Under the pieces are notes generated by a model. It searched no databases, was not told the origin of the DNA, and saw nothing but the letters and a program-made list of their open reading frames with translations. A program made the translations under genes and the position numbers. A DNA stretch of 36,359 nt, taken from positions 1 to 36,359 of the IMG/VR virus record IMGVR_UViG_3300030380_005538; one strand, written 5' to 3'. Positions 4,224 to 15,836 of this stretch are shown one piece after another. Source of the DNA: a virus. Numbering within the stretch: position 1 is the stretch's first letter; every line of letters starts with the position of its first letter.

Positions 4224-6233
4224 ATGCAAAATAAGATTTTGGGAGAGGTGAGCTTTGCGGCACAATATGCAAAGCCGGTTGAGGGGGGTCGTGAGTCATG
4301 GATTGATGCTGTGAATCGTGTTGAATCAATGCATCAAAACAAGTTCAAAGACTTGAATCTTGAGACAGAGATTCGAAGAGCATTTGATTTTGTACGTGAG
4401 AAGAGAGTCTTTGCAAGTCAAAGGTCAACTCAATTTGGTGGTCGAGCTATTGAACGAAATAACATGAGGATGTTCAATTGCACGTTCTCCCCATGTGATA
4501 GAATCAGATTCTTTGCTGAAGCCTTTTGGCTCCTCCTTTCAGGTTGTGGCACTGGATTTTCAATACGTCGCCAACATGTTTCAAAGTTGCCTCGTTTGAT
4601 CTCTGAGCAACATTGGAGAACACGACCAGTCAAGAAGTGCTTTATCTCTGACTCAATTGAAGGGTGGGCAAATGCTGCCTTAATGCTGATTGAATCATAT
4701 TGCCTCGATTCATATTATGATCTCGAGCATGACAAAGAGATTGATTTTAATTATTCATTGATCCGAAGAAAAGGTGCACCAATATCCTCGGGAGGTCGTG
4801 CACCTGGATACAAACCTTTGAAGATTGCACTTGAAAAGATTCGCTCTCGATTGAGAGACATGACTACAAGAGATGAGAAGTTCCATCCGATTGATTGCTT
4901 TGATATAGTCATGTACTTAAGCGAGGCCGTGTTGTCCGGTGGTGTGAGAAGATCTGCATCTATTGCAATCTTTGATGAGGATGATGAGGAGATGATTGAA
5001 TCAAAGAAGGGGGACTGGTGGAAGGATCACCCAGAACGAGCATATGCCAACATATCAGCAGGTATCAAGCTCGATGGCAATGAGCAACAATCAATTGTCA
5101 ATGACATTGTCGATGCCTCAAAACAATGGGGTGAACCTGGCGTTGCCTTCTTCAAGAGTGATGAACATGGAACAAACCCATGTGCTGAGATTGGCTTGCT
5201 CGGTCTGCTCATTCGTGATCAGTATGGTGATGTGATTGACCATGTAACGATTGACATGTTGGAGAACAAAGAGACATACATCAAAAAAGGATATTCATAT
5301 TTCAGTGGCTGGCAATCATGCAACCTCACTGAGATCAACATGGCAAAGAACAAGTCAGCAAAAGAATTCTTTGAGGCCTGCCAAGTTGCTTCCTTTATTG
5401 GAACTCTTCAAGCGGCCTATACTCGATCCGGTTACCTTGGGCACATCACTCAAAAGATCTTGAGGCGTGAGGCTCTTATCGGTGTGAGTATGACTGGAAT
5501 GTGTGAGAATGACATCTCATTTCATGCGGCTGTATTACGAGCAGGAGCACACATCATCAATAAAGAGAATCAACGGGTTGCAAAGATCCTTGGGATTAAC
5601 TCAGCATCAAGAACAACATGCATCAAGCCCAGCGGTAACACATCAACCATTGCAGGGGGAATCTCTTCAGGCATCCATCCACATCATGCAAAGAAGTACA
5701 TTCGACGCATGAGGATATCCAAGGTCAATCCAATATGGGATGAACTGATGAGCAAGGTTCCTCAAGCGTGCCATGATCACGATGAGAACACTGGTATCAT
5801 TTCATTTGCATGTCAAGCTCCCCTTGGAAGTGTTTCACGTGAAACATCTGACGCAATGACTCACCTTGAAAGAGTTAAGACAGTTTATGAGAATTGGGTT
5901 CTTCCTGGTAGCACTCAGACAAGAGTTGAAGGGTTGACTCATAATGTAAGTAATACTTGTACAGTGAAGGAAGATGAGTGGAATGATGTTGCCTCATTCA
6001 TTTGGGATCATCGAGAGTCATTGAGGGGGGTGGCACTGCTCGGATACGTCGCTGATCATTTATATGATATGGCACCTTATCAAACTGTCATCGATGGCCA
6101 TGATTCAGAAAAGACTTGGAATGATCTTGCTTCAATTGATTGGGAGGGGGTCAACTTATTTGTCGAGGGGGAAGGTGAGAATCCTGTTCTTGATCCTGCT
6201 TGCTCGGGTGGTGAATGTACTTTAAGTTTTTAA
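4224..6233 (+). CDS. nrdJ: Adenosylcobalamin-dependent (class II) ribonucleotide reductase
   Basis: The 669-residue monomeric-type enzyme reduces ribonucleotides to deoxyribonucleotides using a B12-generated radical. AAGGAAG precedes the ATG. Visible landmarks are the cysteine pair for the disulfide step (C86 in MFNCTF and C366 in WQSCNLTE), the specificity-loop motif GCGTGF (108-112), GGVRRSASI (239-247), the thiyl-radical finger NPCAE (C320, E322), the phosphate-binding PSGNTSTIAG, and a mobile C-terminal cysteine pair CSGGEC (C660, C665). This C-x4-C spacing equals that of the Lactobacillus RTPR tail. About 45 residues separate C320 from C366, more than in compact RTPRs. Length is normal for the family. 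Together with ThyX and dCMP deaminase it makes the phage self-sufficient in dNTP precursors; the host must supply cobalamin and a reductant. Confidence 0.93.
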   Translation: MQNKILGEVSFAAQYAKPVEGGRESWIDAVNRVESMHQNKFKDLNLETEIRRAFDFVREKRVFASQRSTQFGGRAIERNNMRMFNCTFSPCDRIRFFAEAFWLLLSGCGTGFSIRRQHVSKLPRLISEQHWRTRPVKKCFISDSIEGWANAALMLIESYCLDSYYDLEHDKEIDFNYSLIRRKGAPISSGGRAPGYKPLKIALEKIRSRLRDMTTRDEKFHPIDCFDIVMYLSEAVLSGGVRRSASIAIFDEDDEEMIESKKGDWWKDHPERAYANISAGIKLDGNEQQSIVNDIVDASKQWGEPGVAFFKSDEHGTNPCAEIGLLGLLIRDQYGDVIDHVTIDMLENKETYIKKGYSYFSGWQSCNLTEINMAKNKSAKEFFEACQVASFIGTLQAAYTRSGYLGHITQKILRREALIGVSMTGMCENDISFHAAVLRAGAHIINKENQRVAKILGINSASRTTCIKPSGNTSTIAGGISSGIHPHHAKKYIRRMRISKVNPIWDELMSKVPQACHDHDENTGIISFACQAPLGSVSRETSDAMTHLERVKTVYENWVLPGSTQTRVEGLTHNVSNTCTVKEDEWNDVASFIWDHRESLRGVALLGYVADHLYDMAPYQTVIDGHDSEKTWNDLASIDWEGVNLFVEGEGENPVLDPACSGGECTLSF

Positions 6234-8450: not shown

Positions 8451-9170
8451 ATGAATGAATTCGAAGTACAGTCACTTGTCATGGAAGCAAGAGATGTGAA
8501 GCCAGCAGACAAGTTCGTGATGATCTGCATCCTAAAAAATGTTGATTGGTCGAGTTGGAAAGGATCAGTCAGACTTTTATATATAAGCAAGAAGTATGAT
8601 GTGAAAAGAAAGACATTATACAGAATCATCCAGCGCTTGAAATCTCTTAATTGGATTAAGGTGAACACTCAATCAACTGAGACAACTATTGAAGTGAATC
8701 TTAAAACAATATTGAATCAAAAGAGCATGGTCAAAATGACACAGGGTCAAAATGACATGGTCAAAGTGACTCATGGTGATGGTCAGAATGACCCATTGGA
8801 GGTGGTCAAAGTGACCCATGGTGATGGTCAAAATGACCCACATAACAATAGTATCAATAATAATACAATAGATATCAATAAAGAACATCTTGAACTTGTG
8901 ACAAAAGAAGAAGCAATGAAATACACTGAGAACCAACAATTCAATGATCTAGCTCATATGTGTGATGATCGTGGCAAAGTTCCTCTTCATGTTCTCAAAG
9001 CACTACATCGAAGACTTGAGATTGAAAGACGTTGGGCACATCATAAGAAGACCATTGAAACAAATCCATTCAATCAAGCAAGAATCTTTGAAGCTTTCAA
9101 GAAAGCAGAGATCAGAGAAGACTTTGACATCTATCGTTCAAATGCACAGATCAAAAAGACATGGAGTTAA
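8451..9170 (+). CDS. Replication initiator, lambda O-like, with internal origin
   Basis: The 239-residue protein has GGAG seven bases before ATG. Residues 10 to about 85 look like a winged helix-turn-helix (ADKFVMICILKNVDWSSWKG then RKTLYRIIQRLKSLNWIKV). Residues 93-145 form a hydrophilic linker made of repeats (VKVTHGDGQNDP) ending in an Asn/Ile-rich stretch. Residues 150-239 are a helical C-terminal domain (HVLKALHRRLEIERRWAHHK). The linker-coding DNA is an iteron array followed by an AT-rich tract, exactly the layout of lambda O, where the N-terminal domain binds iterons and the C-terminal domain recruits the loader. The next gene is a DnaC-like ATPase (P-equivalent). The origin-binding role is inferred from architecture. 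Confidence 0.75.
   Translation: MNEFEVQSLVMEARDVKPADKFVMICILKNVDWSSWKGSVRLLYISKKYDVKRKTLYRIIQRLKSLNWIKVNTQSTETTIEVNLKTILNQKSMVKMTQGQNDMVKVTHGDGQNDPLEVVKVTHGDGQNDPHNNSINNNTIDINKEHLELVTKEEAMKYTENQQFNDLAHMCDDRGKVPLHVLKALHRRLEIERRWAHHKKTIETNPFNQARIFEAFKKAEIREDFDIYRSNAQIKKTWS
8729..8837 (+). repeat. Six iterons GGTCA(A/G)A(A/G)TGAC inside the initiator gene
   Basis: Copies start at 8729, 8745, 8759, 8781, 8804 and 8826. Each is a 12-bp near-palindrome, extended to GGTCA-N3-TGACC in the last three. The last three gaps of 22-23 bp approximate two helical turns. The blocks 8759-8795 and 8804-8840 are 37-bp direct repeats with two mismatches. Confidence 0.9.
8841..8880. other. AT-rich putative origin-unwinding element
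   Basis: Only 7 of 40 bases are G or C, immediately after the last iteron. In iteron origins such as lambda ori and many plasmids this is where the duplex first opens. It is in-frame coding sequence (NNSINNNTIDIN). Origin function is inferred. Confidence 0.6.
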
Positions 9171-9172
9171 TA

Positions 9173-10075
9173 ATGGAGCGCCTTGGTGATAGTCCTGAAC
9201 TAAAAAAGTTATTGAACTCACTTCAAGAGTTCATTCAAGATCCAAACAGAGAACCTTTACAATTCAAAGTGAATCAAGACTGGTCGAACTTCAACCCCGA
9301 CGAATATCATCTTTATGATCTCATCAAAGCAGGGAGCAATCGATGCCTTGCAGTCAATCAACCTCCATGTGGAAGTTGTGTTGAAGGGTATGAGTTCACA
9401 AGGGAGAACAGCGAACCCAATGCAATTCCTTGTCGTAATTGTGGAAAGCTCAAGAAGTCACTTAACTTATTATTGAGATCACAGCTTCCCAATGATGCTT
9501 TGAATGCTTCACTCTCAGAATATGAATTCGATAGTGCACTTCAAAAGAATGCATTTGATGAAATGATCTCATGGGATAGAATCAATAAGCCTCCATCATT
9601 CTTGATGCATGGAAGACCTGGCAATGGAAAGTCGAGTCTCTTATACATCATTGCAAAACATAAGACAGCCCAAGGATTCAGAGTTAAGTATGCTCATCAC
9701 TATCGAACCTTTGAGGCAGAGAAGAACTCATGGAATGACAACACATCAAAACCTCATCTTGATCAGTTCTTGAATGATGTCGAAGTTCTTTGTCTTGATG
9801 AATTCGGCGGCCTTGGTGGTGGTGTTCACAAATATTCTGATTGGTTCAAGAATACGACCATTGAGTTGATTGGATCAATATATGAAAAGTGGAAGTCTGG
9901 AAAGATGTCTGTCATCTTCACAACTAACATTCATCCATCCATGTTAAGAGATAAATTATTTGATGGTAATTATGCAGCTCTATCAAGAATGCAGGAGATG
10001 TTTCAACAACCGATTGAGATGACTGGACGAGATCGAAGAAGCCCATTGAATACATCATCAGTTTGGGGACAATGA
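9173..10075 (+). CDS. DnaC/IstB-like AAA+ helicase loader
   Basis: The start at 9173 is preferred because GGAG lies six bases upstream; it gives 300 residues (an upstream in-frame ATG at 9161 is possible). Two CxxC pairs (C66/C69 and C87/C90) may bind zinc in the N-terminal domain. The AAA+ core has Walker A HGRPGNGKSS (about 146-155), Walker B VLCLDEFGG (D209-E210) and a sensor-like VIFTTNIHPSML. The family loads the replicative DnaB helicase. The N-terminal zinc domain resembles the arrangement in DnaC-type phage loaders. It directly follows the O-like initiator, as P follows O in lambda. Its last 18 bases overlap the convergent dCMP deaminase gene. Confidence 0.85.
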   Translation: MERLGDSPELKKLLNSLQEFIQDPNREPLQFKVNQDWSNFNPDEYHLYDLIKAGSNRCLAVNQPPCGSCVEGYEFTRENSEPNAIPCRNCGKLKKSLNLLLRSQLPNDALNASLSEYEFDSALQKNAFDEMISWDRINKPPSFLMHGRPGNGKSSLLYIIAKHKTAQGFRVKYAHHYRTFEAEKNSWNDNTSKPHLDQFLNDVEVLCLDEFGGLGGGVHKYSDWFKNTTIELIGSIYEKWKSGKMSVIFTTNIHPSMLRDKLFDGNYAALSRMQEMFQQPIEMTGRDRRSPLNTSSVWGQ

Positions 10076-11229: not shown

Positions 11230-11487
11230 ATGAAAACACAATATACAATCAGTTTTGAACAAGAACAAGTTAAGTACATTCGAGAGCTTGCAAGAGGTCA
11301 ATATGTTTCATTCAGTGAAGCAGTCAGACAATTAATCTCAATTGCAATTGAAGCATATGAGGAGAAGTCTTTGCCAGTAAAGCAAAAGGTTGAGTTGATT
11401 GAGAAGCAGATTCAATCACTTGATGAACAAAAAAAACAACTCTCCTACCAGCGCGATTATTTAAAAGATAGAATTGAGGATCAATAA
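11230..11487 (+). CDS. Ribbon-helix-helix protein with C-terminal coiled coil
   Basis: The protein has 85 residues with a perfect AAAGGAGG five bases before ATG. Residues 1-45 match an Arc/CopG-type fold: a beta strand TQYTISFEQEQ, helix VKYIRELA, and helix SFSEAVRQLISIAIEAYEE. Residues 50-85 are a charged coiled coil (VELIEKQIQSLDEQKKQL). It probably binds DNA as a dimer and may regulate the following SSB/terminase operon or its own promoter. The last base of its stop codon is the first base of the SSB start (TAATG), so the genes are coupled. Confidence 0.75.
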   Translation: MKTQYTISFEQEQVKYIRELARGQYVSFSEAVRQLISIAIEAYEEKSLPVKQKVELIEKQIQSLDEQKKQLSYQRDYLKDRIEDQ

Positions 11488-12005
11488 TGGGATACAATCA
11501 CATTCATATTTGTGGCAATCTTGGAAGGGACCCCGAGGTCAAGACAACCCAAGCAGGCAAGACAATGGTTCGACTCAGTGTTGCAGTAACAAAGAGATAC
11601 AACAATCAAGATAATACTACATGGTTCAAAGTGGTGGCCTTTGGTGAACTTGCTGAAAGATGTGCTCGATCACTTGTCAAAGGATGTAAGCTCTCAGTTC
11701 ATGGGGAGATGGAAGCAAGGTCTTATCAACATAATGGTGAAAATCGTGTTGACTGGTCTGTCCTTATGCGTGGTGTAGAATTTCATACCCGTCCTGATCG
11801 CAACCAACAACCAAAGCATTCAACTGAATATAAACCATCTCCATCTCTTCAAGAGGTAAAAGCAGAATCAAAGAGAGTTGAAGTCCTGGACCCTTGGACT
11901 TGGGACAAAACAGAGACCCCTGCTCAAAGTGATTACAAGTGGGAAACAAACCCAAGTGAAGTGAATTCCTTTGTCAATCAACCATGGAGAAACAATCCAA
12001 AATGA
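11487..12005 (+). CDS. ssb: Single-stranded DNA-binding protein
   Basis: The 172-residue protein has an OB-fold at residues 1-110: NHIHICGNLGRDPEVKTTQAG, TTWFKVVAFGELAERCA and VHGEMEARSYQHNGE are standard SSB strands. The C-terminal 60 residues are a Pro/Ser/Lys-rich linker. The usual acidic tip (DDDIPF-like), used by host SSBs to recruit partners, is missing; the protein ends QPWRNNPK. This may make it a dedicated ssDNA coat that does not engage host SSB partners. It likely acts with the RecT-like protein and the replisome. It overlaps the small terminase gene. Confidence 0.93.
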   Translation: MGYNHIHICGNLGRDPEVKTTQAGKTMVRLSVAVTKRYNNQDNTTWFKVVAFGELAERCARSLVKGCKLSVHGEMEARSYQHNGENRVDWSVLMRGVEFHTRPDRNQQPKHSTEYKPSPSLQEVKAESKRVEVLDPWTWDKTETPAQSDYKWETNPSEVNSFVNQPWRNNPK

Positions 12006-12472
12006 GTAATAAAGACTTGACTGAATTCGGAAGGCGTGAAGCCATGAGTCATCAAAATGATACAAACAAGACACCGTCTTCGCGCGTGCGTGAGATTCAG
12101 CCATACAAATATTCTGAAGATGTCGCCATGATCATATGCACATACTTAAGAAAAGGATGCACCATTGAAGCCGCTTGTCAAGCTGCCAACATTGGGAGAG
12201 CAACCTATTATCGATGGATGGACGAGATACCCGAGTTCAAAGAGTTCGTCAATGCAACTGAGTCTGATGTGGAGGCAACCCTGCTTGATACCATCAGAGA
12301 GTTTGGAGACTGGAGAGCGGCCGCTTGGATCCTCGAAAGACGTTATCCTCAACGATGGGGAGTCAAGAGAGAGCTTGAGGTCAATGTAACAAAGCAGACT
12401 GGGACTGATGTGGTTCATGGAATGCTAGCAAATATTTTAAAACAAGAAAGCACTGACGATTCGAAGCCGTGA
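12002..12472 (+). CDS. terS: Terminase small subunit (putative)
   Basis: The ATG at 12002 overlaps the SSB stop as ATGA and gives 156 residues; starts at 11984 and 12044 are alternatives. A helix-turn-helix region (CTIEAACQAANIGRATYYRWMDEIPEFKEF in pieces, about residues 50-80) is followed by helices (SDVEATLLDTIREFGDWRAAAWILERRYPQRWG). The AAWILERRYPQRWG phrase is typical of phage small terminases that recognise the packaging site. It stands two genes before the large subunit, an arrangement broken only by the GHKL gene. A strong hairpin covers its stop codon. Confidence 0.8.
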   Translation: MSNKDLTEFGRREAMSHQNDTNKTPSSRVREIQPYKYSEDVAMIICTYLRKGCTIEAACQAANIGRATYYRWMDEIPEFKEFVNATESDVEATLLDTIREFGDWRAAAWILERRYPQRWGVKRELEVNVTKQTGTDVVHGMLANILKQESTDDSKP

Positions 12473-12489: not shown

Positions 12490-12519
12490 CAATTGTAATA
12501 TGTCAACAAGGAAGATAAT

Positions 12520-14478
12520 ATGAATATGAAGAGAAGTCAATTCACACCTATCAAAGATGATTCACCATCATCAACCATGATTCGATTTGGGCGACAAGTC
12601 GCACCAATGCAATTCTTGAGAGAAGCAATTCAGAACTCAATTGAAGCAGGTGCAACAAAGATCAAGATTGAACCTTGTCCAATGGCATTGCATGAGCACG
12701 CTGAGTTACCAGGTGGAATCAAAAGATTGTCCGTTCTTGATAATGGTGAAGGAATGAACGCAGATCAGTTGTTGAAATATATTAATAAATATAATTCATC
12801 ATCCAAGATCAGCGGTGGTCATCATGACAACTTTGGAATAGGTATCAAAGCAACTGCAGCCAACTTCAATCACTATGGTCTTGTGTTCATCTCATGGACA
12901 AGAGAGTCAGATGAAGGCAACATGATTTGGTTGTGCTATAACAAGAAGGCAAAACAATTTGGTGTCAGACATATTCCAGTATATGAAAAACAAGATGATG
13001 GAGAGTATGAACTGACATATAAGCAAGTTGTGTCTTTGAGCGAACTTGAAGCAACCTATGAAAATGAAGGAGGATTTGAAGGGGTTAAGTGGTGGAATGC
13101 TAATCAGAAACTTGCATACCAAACATGGAAAGTTAAAACAATCAAGAAGCATGGTACCATTGTTTATTTTTGTGGAATGCATTCGACAGACAATACTTGG
13201 TGCCGTGATGCTCGTGGCAAATCATTTGCGGAATGGTCTTATACACATTATCTTAATAAAAGATTTTATAATTTAGCCAATGTGTCGAGACATAGCACGA
13301 CTAGAACAAACGTTGACAGTAAGAAATCTTATGGCTTTGAGTATCATACTTATGCATTCGGATTTAAAAAAATTGATGAAAGTATGATTAATGGCTTTAA
13401 AGTCATTACACTATTTAATAAAAATAGCATAGAGAGAGGAGTCGGTAAAAAAAATAAGATGTATTCACATGTTGCGAGTGCTTTTGATATTTCATCATAC
13501 AACAATGGATTCATTGCAGTAAAATATAAGAATGAATTATACAATCTTGAAACAGGCAAACGAGCATCAAGACAATGGGGGATCATTGCTGATGAAGTCA
13601 TGAGTCAAGTAAAGATTATTGTTATTCCTCCTGAGTACGATCCTAAAACAAATTATGGAGTGTTCCCCAATGAAGGACGTGACACTCTCATGATTGAGGA
13701 TGGAAGCAAGGACCAAGAAACAAAGGTCTTAGACTTGAAGGAGATCAGAGAATATTATGTTGATAATATGCCTCAAGAAGTATCTGATGCAATCGACAAT
13801 GCTTTAAGAAAGAAGATGAACTTTAAACATTCAGATGAAGCGATATTCAAAAAGTATAAGTTCTTGTTTAAGTTGAGAGTAACTCGAGAACTTGAAGAGC
13901 AAATGGCAGCAGACAAAGAAGGAGAGGATCAGCTTGATTTAAGTCTTAATGGAGATAAGACCAAAGCGAAATCCAAAGACAAAAAAGATAAACCAGAGTT
14001 AAGCAAGAAGATGAAGGAGAAGCTCGATAAGTTAAATAAAGAGAGTCTTCAAAACAAAAAGAAAAAAGAACTTCTTGCAGGTGTCCTTTGGGAACCTTCC
14101 ACTAATGAAGAAGATTGTCGCTATATCGGTTATAATGGTTTCTCATATCCAATGACATCACTTGTCACAAGACTTGGAACAACAATCTTTTGCAATCCCA
14201 ATCATGACATCTTCAAGCAAATGCAACAATACTTTGTCAGCTTGTACAAGGGAGGAGATAAACGCAAGGAAACTATTATGCATGAGATTCAACATGTTGT
14301 TGAGCTTGATATTAAAGTTGCTCATGCTCATAAGATGGCATTTGTAAAACACTATCCACAGTTAAAAGTTGAGAATCAAATCACGAATGACGAGCTCATG
14401 GGACAAATACTTGGATATAATCTTTATACCAAAGTACAACAAGCATTGACTTCAAAAGGATTAAAACTAAAGAAATGA
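12520..14478 (+). CDS. GHKL (Hsp90/gyrase/MORC-type) ATPase with C-terminal HExxH motif
   Basis: The 652-residue protein has AAGGAAG before ATG. The N-terminal 120 residues carry all Bergerat-fold motifs: N-box REAIQNS (E35, N39), G1 LDNGEGM (D74, G76, G78) and G2 NFGIGIK (G106, G108, K110). A beta-rich transducer-like region follows to about residue 400, then a lysine-rich linker (about 475-515). The last 130 residues include MHEIQHVVE (H588, E589, H592), the HExxH signature of zinc metallopeptidases, with E residues downstream as possible third ligand. ATP-driven clamp proteins of this class act on DNA or proteins. The fusion partner and the position between the terminase subunits are odd; its start follows the hairpin and its end overlaps terL (ATGA). 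Function unknown. Confidence 0.8.
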   Translation: MNMKRSQFTPIKDDSPSSTMIRFGRQVAPMQFLREAIQNSIEAGATKIKIEPCPMALHEHAELPGGIKRLSVLDNGEGMNADQLLKYINKYNSSSKISGGHHDNFGIGIKATAANFNHYGLVFISWTRESDEGNMIWLCYNKKAKQFGVRHIPVYEKQDDGEYELTYKQVVSLSELEATYENEGGFEGVKWWNANQKLAYQTWKVKTIKKHGTIVYFCGMHSTDNTWCRDARGKSFAEWSYTHYLNKRFYNLANVSRHSTTRTNVDSKKSYGFEYHTYAFGFKKIDESMINGFKVITLFNKNSIERGVGKKNKMYSHVASAFDISSYNNGFIAVKYKNELYNLETGKRASRQWGIIADEVMSQVKIIVIPPEYDPKTNYGVFPNEGRDTLMIEDGSKDQETKVLDLKEIREYYVDNMPQEVSDAIDNALRKKMNFKHSDEAIFKKYKFLFKLRVTRELEEQMAADKEGEDQLDLSLNGDKTKAKSKDKKDKPELSKKMKEKLDKLNKESLQNKKKKELLAGVLWEPSTNEEDCRYIGYNGFSYPMTSLVTRLGTTIFCNPNHDIFKQMQQYFVSLYKGGDKRKETIMHEIQHVVELDIKVAHAHKMAFVKHYPQLKVENQITNDELMGQILGYNLYTKVQQALTSKGLKLKK

Positions 14479-15836
14479 TTAACATCAACCCCAACCCATT
14501 GCAGACTCAAATCCTTAAAGCGATCGGCAAACAAGACCGTGTTGTGGCTGCTCGATGTGGTTGGGGAAGTGGTAAGACTTCAGCCTTAGTCTTTTCAATG
14601 TTGCTCGTTTCAAAGTTACGACCTGGCACTTCATCACTCATGGTCACAGATACAACTCCACGCTATAACTCGGTATTGATGCCCGAGATTGAGAAGTGGT
14701 TGGTTCCTCTTGGATGGACTTACAATCACACAAATAAACTATGGACTGATACCGAGAACGGCTCAACCGTTTGGTGTCGCTCGTATTATCGACCAGGTAC
14801 AAGAGAAGCAACTCACAATCCTCTCGAGGGTTTGAATGTCACCAGTGGAGTATGCATGATTGATGAATGTCAGACTCTGACTTCTGAGGTAGCACACAAA
14901 GCACTTGGACGATTGAGGAGTGGACCATCTCCAATCATGATCCTCGTTGGTCTTCCTGTCATTGATGCATGGTGGGTGAAGTTAGCTGAGCAGGCTGAAT
15001 GTCAACCCTTGTTCTTCTCCTCATATGTTAACGAGGAGAACTTGAGTCAAGAATGGTTTGAGGCAACAAAGCTCCTTCCACCCGATGAGCGTGAAGCTAT
15101 GGTGATGAATAAACCAAAACCACCGAGCGGATTGGTGTATTCAGAATTCAATCATGAGAAGCATGTCATCGATGACTTTGTATATCATCCATCCATGACT
15201 GGACGAATTGCAATTGACTGGGGATTTAGAAAACCATCAGTCTTGATCATTGTATACGATGAGCAAAGAGAAGCCTCGATCATTGTTCACGAATTCAACC
15301 CCAAGGAAGTCACCATTGAGCAGCTCAGCTTGATGATCCTTGCTGTAGCATATCCTCGTTCATTGATGCCATCAGCACCATCCAAAAGGATTTGGCTTGA
15401 TACAGGTGTTGCAGATAAAGCAGGTAAAGCAAGGAGTGATCATACTGGCCTCTCTGCATTCAGAGTGATTCGCAAGCATCCCAATGAAGGAGGAATAGGA
15501 TTGCCAATGAGGTCAACCACTGATCCAGTCAGGACAGACATTCTCAACGGTGTCCAAAGATTGAAGAGAGCTTTCAACTCGGGCAAGTATCTGATCACTC
15601 GAGAGGTATGGGAGAAGGGGGAGCGGGCAAGCGGCAACTCAATCAGAAAGGCCTTGCTCTCATATGCATGGGATAAGAAAGAACAACCAAAGAAAGACGG
15701 CAGGGAAGATCCTCTTGATGCTTTAAGATATGATTGTATCTTTCATCATTGGACTGAGTCTGCTCGCAACTATCAACCCAAGAGCAAACCAAACCGAAAG
15801 GTTCGAGTTGGTTCATCAAGAAAGGTTAACTTCTAA
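14475..15836 (+). CDS. terL: Terminase large subunit
   Basis: The 453-residue packaging motor has an N-terminal ATPase with Walker A GWGSGKTS (29-36) and Walker B VCMIDE (126-131), followed by a coupling motif region at MILVGLP (155-161). The C-terminal RNase H-like nuclease has IAIDWG (D248) and the late acidic motif EDPLDALRYD. It packages DNA into the prohead and cuts concatemers. The length is slightly short but complete for siphophage enzymes. The start overlaps the GHKL stop codon (ATGA), so the two proteins are made in coupled fashion. Confidence 0.92.
   Translation: MININPNPLQTQILKAIGKQDRVVAARCGWGSGKTSALVFSMLLVSKLRPGTSSLMVTDTTPRYNSVLMPEIEKWLVPLGWTYNHTNKLWTDTENGSTVWCRSYYRPGTREATHNPLEGLNVTSGVCMIDECQTLTSEVAHKALGRLRSGPSPIMILVGLPVIDAWWVKLAEQAECQPLFFSSYVNEENLSQEWFEATKLLPPDEREAMVMNKPKPPSGLVYSEFNHEKHVIDDFVYHPSMTGRIAIDWGFRKPSVLIIVYDEQREASIIVHEFNPKEVTIEQLSLMILAVAYPRSLMPSAPSKRIWLDTGVADKAGKARSDHTGLSAFRVIRKHPNEGGIGLPMRSTTDPVRTDILNGVQRLKRAFNSGKYLITREVWEKGERASGNSIRKALLSYAWDKKEQPKKDGREDPLDALRYDCIFHHWTESARNYQPKSKPNRKVRVGSSRKVNF

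Follow-up and report, generated by a model that had tools for sequence, protein, structure and literature searches.

The viral DNA analysed here, positions 1 to 36,359 of the IMG/VR virus record IMGVR_UViG_3300030380_005538 (36,359 nucleotides; hereafter the window), carries a gene for a 652-residue protein between the genes for the small and the large terminase subunit (terS and terL). This protein appears on balance to be an optional phage conflict protein, namely a catalytically intact ATPase of GHKL-S5-like type whose paraMORC-like family has not been described. According to the best reading of the data, it would resemble RIIA and the paraMORC proteins in its action, without being a demonstrated member of either group, and its variable loops would bind a fast-evolving partner.

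The position of the open reading frame (ORF) between terS and terL, noted in a preliminary description of the DNA, was borne out by PHROG and Pfam matches and by the sequence itself. The frame starts with ATG, and its stop codon shares four bases with the terL start codon (ATGA, 14475-14478). The complete GHKL motifs and the lysine-rich linker named in that description are likewise present, and its remark that the arrangement is not a recognised one is supported. Pfam HATPase_c_3 (PF13589) covers residues 33-116 of the protein with 37.1 bits against a cut-off of 25, and this profile score together with the N-box, the G1 motif and the glycine-rich loop confirmed the assignment to the GHKL superfamily.

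Conserved residues and distribution of the family

In an alignment of 21 phage and bacterial family members, to which the member counts given below refer, the residues R34, N39, E42, G76, G78, N104, G106, G108, K110 and R387 are invariant. E35 is kept in 20 members and replaced by Asp in L186, a divergent phage homologue of 659 residues (27% identity). With its ATP-site residues in place, the window protein is predicted to be a catalytically intact GHKL-S5-like ATPase that hydrolyses ATP. The G1 aspartate is the usual adenine contact of GHKL proteins; since D74 is replaced by Asn in eight bacterial members (L211, L212, L231, L223, L224, L227, L213 and L225, including those linked to Gabija genes), nucleotide use may differ in these proteins. 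R387, present in every member, is the candidate arginine of the S5 or transducer region, its catalytic role being deduced from other GHKL-S5 families (PMC2292703); the full-protein fold model of this region is of low confidence, with a predicted local distance difference test (pLDDT) value of 34.5. A sub-threshold match to DUF5929, obtained with one of eight members, was treated as noise.

Nine relatives with 71-91% identity were detected in IMG/VR, and the GHKL motifs are intact in those covering the N-terminus. Searches of 50,697 cultured phage records by tblastn with the window protein (P0001), L186, L209 and L224 yielded no relative, and no PADLOC model matched P0001, P0003, P0004 or P0006. 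A first scan of genome contigs also yielded no relative, and a profile extended by L186 brought in bacterial members. The first of these were located on two chromosomes (L194/L209 and L195/L210) of the class of a Rhodospirillaceae metagenome-assembled genome, followed by plasmids. The bacterial distribution is rare and patchy, members being present in 5 of 398 genomes in the phylum, 2 of 76 in the order and 6 of 385 in a class. The members can be aligned over the GHKL domain, the S5-like part and the C-terminal domain. The window protein belongs to a GHKL-S5-like family that has not been described and is also represented in some bacteria. In the family tree, which has long branches and unsure deep joins, all phage proteins group in a single clade (100/99) that is nearest to L209 and L226. 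A contig of a Rhodospirillaceae metagenome-assembled genome (L177, PBDG01000001.1) encodes a TerL protein with 62% identity over residues 4-428, which may be a hint to the host or reflect a co-binned phage.

A cargo site between terS and terL

The site between terS and terL was surveyed by a TerL scan comprising 80 loci and by a portal scan. Among the loci with a TerL protein 89-98% identical to that of the window, roughly nine have the GHKL gene and roughly eighteen are without it, and no gene of note is present between terS and terL in L036, L039, L040, L053 and L054. In L033, L030 and L055, the terL gene is preceded by ATGAAT(A/G)TTAGGAGTAGTCA, a stub of seven codons from the GHKL start that is fused to the terL start, and in L054 the ribosome-binding region used by the GHKL gene of L002 runs directly into terL. 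These stubs and the L054 junction indicate that the GHKL gene is both gained and lost as a unit. The stub MN(I/V)RSSQ, joined to the terL ATG at L033:3894-4002, at L030:599-703 and upstream of position 4001 in L055, has the appearance of a clean deletion scar. Other occupants of the site are an ORF with HNH and helix-turn-helix (HTH) parts in some loci (Pfam HNH, E=6e-6) and unrelated ORFs elsewhere. The survey reveals a cargo hotspot at the terS/terL junction, with the GHKL gene as optional cargo. The junctions of L035-L176 also contain T5orf172 (GIY-YIG-like) ORFs and ORFs of 300-440 residues that resemble PD-(D/E)xK nucleases by eye (D...ExK), with no convincing Pfam match.

A hypervariable patch in the S5-like region

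Sequence variation among the phage proteins is concentrated in residues 195-211 and 234-325, a sharply bounded region located between the GHKL domain and the conserved arginine. In clade A (window, L001 and L008), 49% of the columns in these segments are variable versus 4% elsewhere, and the respective values are 59% versus 8% in clade B (L002-L005 and L007). The scan statistic exceeded all 20,000 column shuffles in each of the two clades (p<=5e-5). Close pairs are 53-69% identical in the second segment, as compared with 94-99% over most of the remaining protein, and the lengths of the segments differ among relatives by insertions and deletions. Between L001 and L008, the rates of nonsynonymous (dN) and synonymous (dS) substitution are 0.25 and 0.21 in the larger segment and 0.01 and 0.19 in residues 1-194. 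Bacterial pairs show only a mild excess of change in the hypervariable region.

In a whole-phage comparison of the window with L008, the GHKL gene has a lowest 40-residue identity of 0.45 and a median of 0.975, and a lower local minimum was found only in a replication initiator-like ORF (8451-9170), a tail-fibre-like ORF (10-1185) and a small ORF (11230-11487). The patch changes as fast as the tail fibre, a host-recognition protein, which suggests an arms race. Most genes of these two phages are 95-99% identical; the ORF at 8451-9170 and the 85-residue ORF at 11230-11487 are 58% and 53% identical, respectively. A diversity-generating retroelement, which the hypervariability had brought to mind, was rejected in view of the length differences due to insertions and deletions and because no reverse transcriptase was recognised among the scanned window ORFs, a search for template repeats not having been made.

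Genomic neighbourhoods of the bacterial members

The bacterial members examined have no phage context. On an Agrobacterium plasmid, gajA (E=8e-221) and gajB (E=3e-178) follow immediately after the GHKL gene, and on a Dinoroseobacter plasmid a gene of unknown family encoding 461 residues (L212:9932-11317), which is missing at the Agrobacterium locus, is placed between the GHKL gene and gajA/gajB. In L231, the GHKL gene is followed by an MBL-like gene, by a gene for an E2-E1-JAB protein (E=9e-74) and by a patatin gene, and the divergent neighbour in L224 encodes a DRT reverse transcriptase (RT_UG13a, E=4e-225). L209, L226, L210 and L214 look solitary, and L209, L223, L224 and L226 are located within a few kilobases of tRNA genes. 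A conserved, helical-looking protein of 76-91 residues with a GNLSN motif is encoded directly upstream of the GHKL gene in L211, L212, L231, L235, L223 and L224, and a match also precedes that of L227. On plasmids of Priestia and Ensifer, relatives of this small protein are encoded ahead of further large ORFs that are also GHKL-like by eye, with genes for a MutH/Sau3AI endonuclease or a DNA methyltransferase nearby.

Comparison with known GHKL proteins

T4 RIIA and its orthologues are phage GHKL proteins of counter-defence and counter-exclusion with a highly variable C-terminal domain (PMC7824862). The window protein resembles RIIA in being phage-encoded, in its N-terminal GHKL domain of the same superfamily and in its similar length (725 residues in RIIA). 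Both proteins have a highly variable part, which is C-terminal in RIIA and lies in the S5-like region of the window protein, and by eye an arginine motif follows the GHKL domain in both (SREAL in RIIA, GRDTL in the window protein). The similarity is, however, at the GHKL level only and no closer than that to MutL. It amounts to 31% identity over 87 residues by blastp and to 84-85% probability in profile comparison, and it is confined to the GHKL region in blastp and with the A2 profile, the A6 profile reaching further only as a low-identity tail. The window protein has no RIIA PHROG match, and its gene is followed by terL and not by riiB, whereas each of eight other name-annotated riiA genes examined is followed by riiB. 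Membership in the RIIA group was rejected, as the ten RIIA proteins compared show GHKL-level similarity only and a riiB neighbour is missing.

The prokaryotic MORC and paraMORC1-5 proteins are GHKL-S5 ATPases, and MORC proteins carry the signature GhXhhpXXRhl in the S5 domain (PMC2292703). The window family shares with them the GHKL domain, a predicted S5 domain, a C-terminal extension, a sporadic distribution and the location of some bacterial members in defence neighbourhoods, but differs in that no fused nuclease was found and that members occur in phages. In every family member, the MORC signature is absent at the S5 arginine, which is one residue nearer to the glycine, and an assignment to MORC proper was rejected on this ground. 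The likeness to paraMORC appears to be one of architecture only.

VcSduA, which combines a GHKL domain with a Shedu nuclease, is a proven anti-phage protein with an essential ATPase residue (PMC12137116). The GHKL ATPase is common to both proteins; the C-terminal PD-(D/E)xK/DUF4263 domain that defines paraMORC3 and Shedu had no Pfam match in P0001, L186, L209 and L210, and membership in paraMORC3 or Shedu was rejected since the nuclease domain was not detected. The HTH-STAS-GHKL kinase CapK is encoded upstream of immune operons (PMC13373217), similar to the GHKL genes of the bacterial members L211, L212 and L231, which lie just upstream of diverse immune operons. In the window family, however, the GHKL domain is N-terminal, neither an HTH-STAS part nor a capS partner was seen, and an S5-type arginine is present instead of a serine-kinase layout; identity with CapK was rejected because of the different domain order. 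Finally, gajAB is found downstream of two bacterial family members, but the GHKL gene is no Gabija component in PADLOC and most family members are not located beside gajAB.

Proposed function and alternatives

As an optional phage conflict protein, the window protein would dimerise on ATP like MutL, Hsp90, MORC or T4 RIIA, and the ATP-driven closure would be coupled to the S5 (transducer) domain, whose arginine would complete the active site. The hypervariable loops on the S5 surface would grip a partner that varies among hosts or among rivals, and the helical domain at the C-terminus may hold the dimer together or carry the output. The partner may be a host defence complex that is blocked or derailed in RIIA fashion. 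Counter-defence, listed among the possible roles in the preliminary description, is supported as a possibility, and a host-directed action is somewhat more likely than an action against competing phages, since the phage looks lytic and the patch diversifies like the tail fibre. The lytic appearance is deduced from the genes for ThyX, dCMP deaminase, ribonucleotide reductase and a RecT-like protein, along with the lack of any recognisable gene for an integrase or for lysogeny in the scanned ORFs of the window. The ribonucleotide reductase-like ORF (4224-6233) matches PHROG 367 (E=2e-94) and has a Pfam match below the cut-off (E=0.0013). In a wider and decidedly tentative proposal, the family may consist of GHKL-S5 'grip' ATPases on both sides of the conflict, with bacterial forms, often accompanied by a 76-residue partner, serving as anti-phage systems or alongside them, and with phages having captured one such protein, whose S5 loops would have become a rapidly diversifying binding surface of an adaptable, ATP-driven device for counter-defence or exclusion.

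Several points weigh against the conflict interpretation. The hypervariable segment likewise has an elevated dS in the majority of the other pairs, so that recombination between divergent alleles probably contributes to the diversity. The nearest bacterial relatives, L209 and L226, are solitary, close to tRNA genes and have no recognised defence neighbour, and it is in a deeper sister clade that the members beside Gabija, E1-E2 and DRT genes are placed. As the phage clade is nearest to L209 and L226 in the tree and the defence-linked members form this deeper sister group, the defence link is informative on the family at large. Moreover, the gajA/gajB genes of Agrobacterium and Dinoroseobacter are 82-85% identical and represent one lineage, which reduces the independent kinds of defence neighbour to three, and the defence neighbours stem from a scan of selected neighbours without a background rate for comparison. 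As the model of the full protein was unusable, the exposure of the loops at the surface, the assignment of the S5 domain and the dimerisation are predictions only.

Alternatively, a GHKL gene of defence type might exclude co-infecting phages, with the hypervariable loops recognising parts of the rivals. The Gabija, E1-E2-JAB and DRT systems adjoining bacterial homologues are consistent with such an anti-competitor role, as is the exchange of cargo at one site, which is reminiscent of the antiviral hotspots of P2/P4 phages (PMC9122126). This role is nevertheless rather unlikely, as exclusion genes are less expected in a lytic-looking phage and the closest bacterial relatives are without recognised defence neighbours.

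In some phages, HNH proteins located beside terminases contribute to packaging. An HNH protein is another common occupant of the terS/terL site, and the location of the GHKL gene, with its stop codon overlapping the terL start, could likewise point to an ATP-gated clamp on DNA or an assembly factor that works together with TerS and TerL. A conserved co-occurrence with terS and terL, which the preliminary description had proposed to check, was not found: many phages of the same TerL clade (TerL 89-98% identical) are devoid of the gene, in some cases without a replacement gene. No copy away from terS/terL was detected in 18 other long related contigs, including G001 (32.7 kb, TerL 96% identical), and the divergent homologue carried by G010, G011 and a third contig is encoded downstream of recT and not at terS/terL. 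The absence from phages with closely related TerL and the recT-linked homologue make a packaging component improbable. The bacterial members without phage context also argue against it, and a factor facing the conserved TerL should not diversify at a dN/dS of about 1 in one patch.

A housekeeping function in the phage as an orphan ATPase or regulator, for instance in DNA repair along with recombination genes, is less probable still. In PDB and NCBIfam, the GHKL domain is closest in sequence to MutL, and this as well as the location of L186 behind recT would fit such a role, in which the hypervariable segment would be a relaxed linker. The gene is dispensable in close relatives, however, and the constant residues interspersed among the variable ones (GFxY, GFKK, FKxIT, Y315 and FD) argue against a loose linker.

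The HEIQH string and the C-terminal domain

The preliminary description had interpreted HEIQH at residues 588-592 as the zinc site of a metallopeptidase tail, possibly of a chaperone-protease. The letters are present and sit in a long helix (residues 579-611) in the models of both the full protein and the C-terminal domain, but HExxH occurs at this position in only two of the 21 members, the window protein and L008. The closest relatives read NEIQQ (L001, 90% identical overall) or DEIQQ (L002-L007, L009 and the partial L044), L186 reads ELIQD, and the bacterial members read NIVKN, EIVLN, NDVQE, SSILR and others. H588, E589 and H592 are accordingly replaced by N/E/Q or D/E/Q in near relatives and by E/L/D, N/I/N, N/D/E or S/S/R in distant ones, with loss of the glutamate in L186 and the bacterial members. 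Unrelated HExxH strings occur elsewhere in other members, such as HEGTH at 223/224 in L223 and L224.

Structure prediction, which the description had proposed as a check, gave an unusable full-protein model and a C-terminal domain model with a pLDDT of 65.7. The latter matched no peptidase fold in BFVD and PDB by Foldseek at E<=0.001, but at this threshold it had no match of any other kind either; a peptidase match was also absent in the Pfam and PDB sequence searches. Judged by the alignment, the HEIQH of the window protein is a coincidence. Lack of HExxH conservation among homologues, which the preliminary description had named as a ground for refuting its peptidase reading, is what the alignment shows. 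A fusion of a GHKL ATPase with a zinc peptidase of the HExxH type is scarcely credible and was rejected, since the motif fails as a family trait and neither the histidines nor the catalytic glutamate are kept.

Features of the window and of related loci

Table 1. Coordinates of the GHKL gene, its sequence features and flanking genes in the window, and of GNLSN-motif genes at bacterial loci
Feature	Position	Strand	Basis or remark
terS, small terminase subunit	11984..12472	+	Left edge of cargo site; PHROG 4102 E=2e-27, Pfam Sf6_terminase
Likely ribosome-binding site AAGGAAG of GHKL gene	12508..12514	+	Read from sequence
GHKL-S5-like ATPase gene, 652 residues	12520..14478	+	Pfam HATPase_c_3 E=3.9e-9
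N-box R34-E35-x3-N39 (ATP/Mg site)	12619..12636	+	21-member alignment
G1 motif D74-N-G-E-G-M79	12739..12756	+	21-member alignment
Glycine-rich loop N104-F-G-I-G-I-K110	12829..12849	+	21-member alignment
Hypervariable segment 1, residues 195-211	13102..13152	+	Phage family comparison
Hypervariable segment 2, residues 234-325, inside predicted S5/transducer region	13219..13494	+	Pair identities and permutation
S5-type motif G380-V-F-P-N-E-G-R387-D-T-L390, candidate catalytic arginine	13657..13689	+	R387 in 21/21
Lysine-rich linker, residues about 471-520	13930..14079	+	Sequence; poorly conserved
C-terminal domain, residues 521-652	14080..14475	+	Can be aligned with bacterial members; matches no known fold
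HEIQH, residues 588-592	14281..14295	+	Chance HExxH in long predicted helix
terL, large terminase subunit	14475..15836	+	PHROG 2 E=2e-13
GNLSN-motif proteins upstream of GHKL	L211:7758-7988; L212:7760-7990; L231 about 8968-9213; L235:8469-8690

Implications for phage GHKL ATPases

If the interpretation as a phage conflict protein is true, the window gene would place a second GHKL conflict ATPase of phages alongside RIIA, which has remained obscure in its mode of action for decades, and residues 195-325 would represent the exact stretch where the partner should bind. Through its bacterial branch, the family also draws attention to an unlisted gene in the neighbourhoods of Gabija, ubiquitin-like and DRT systems.
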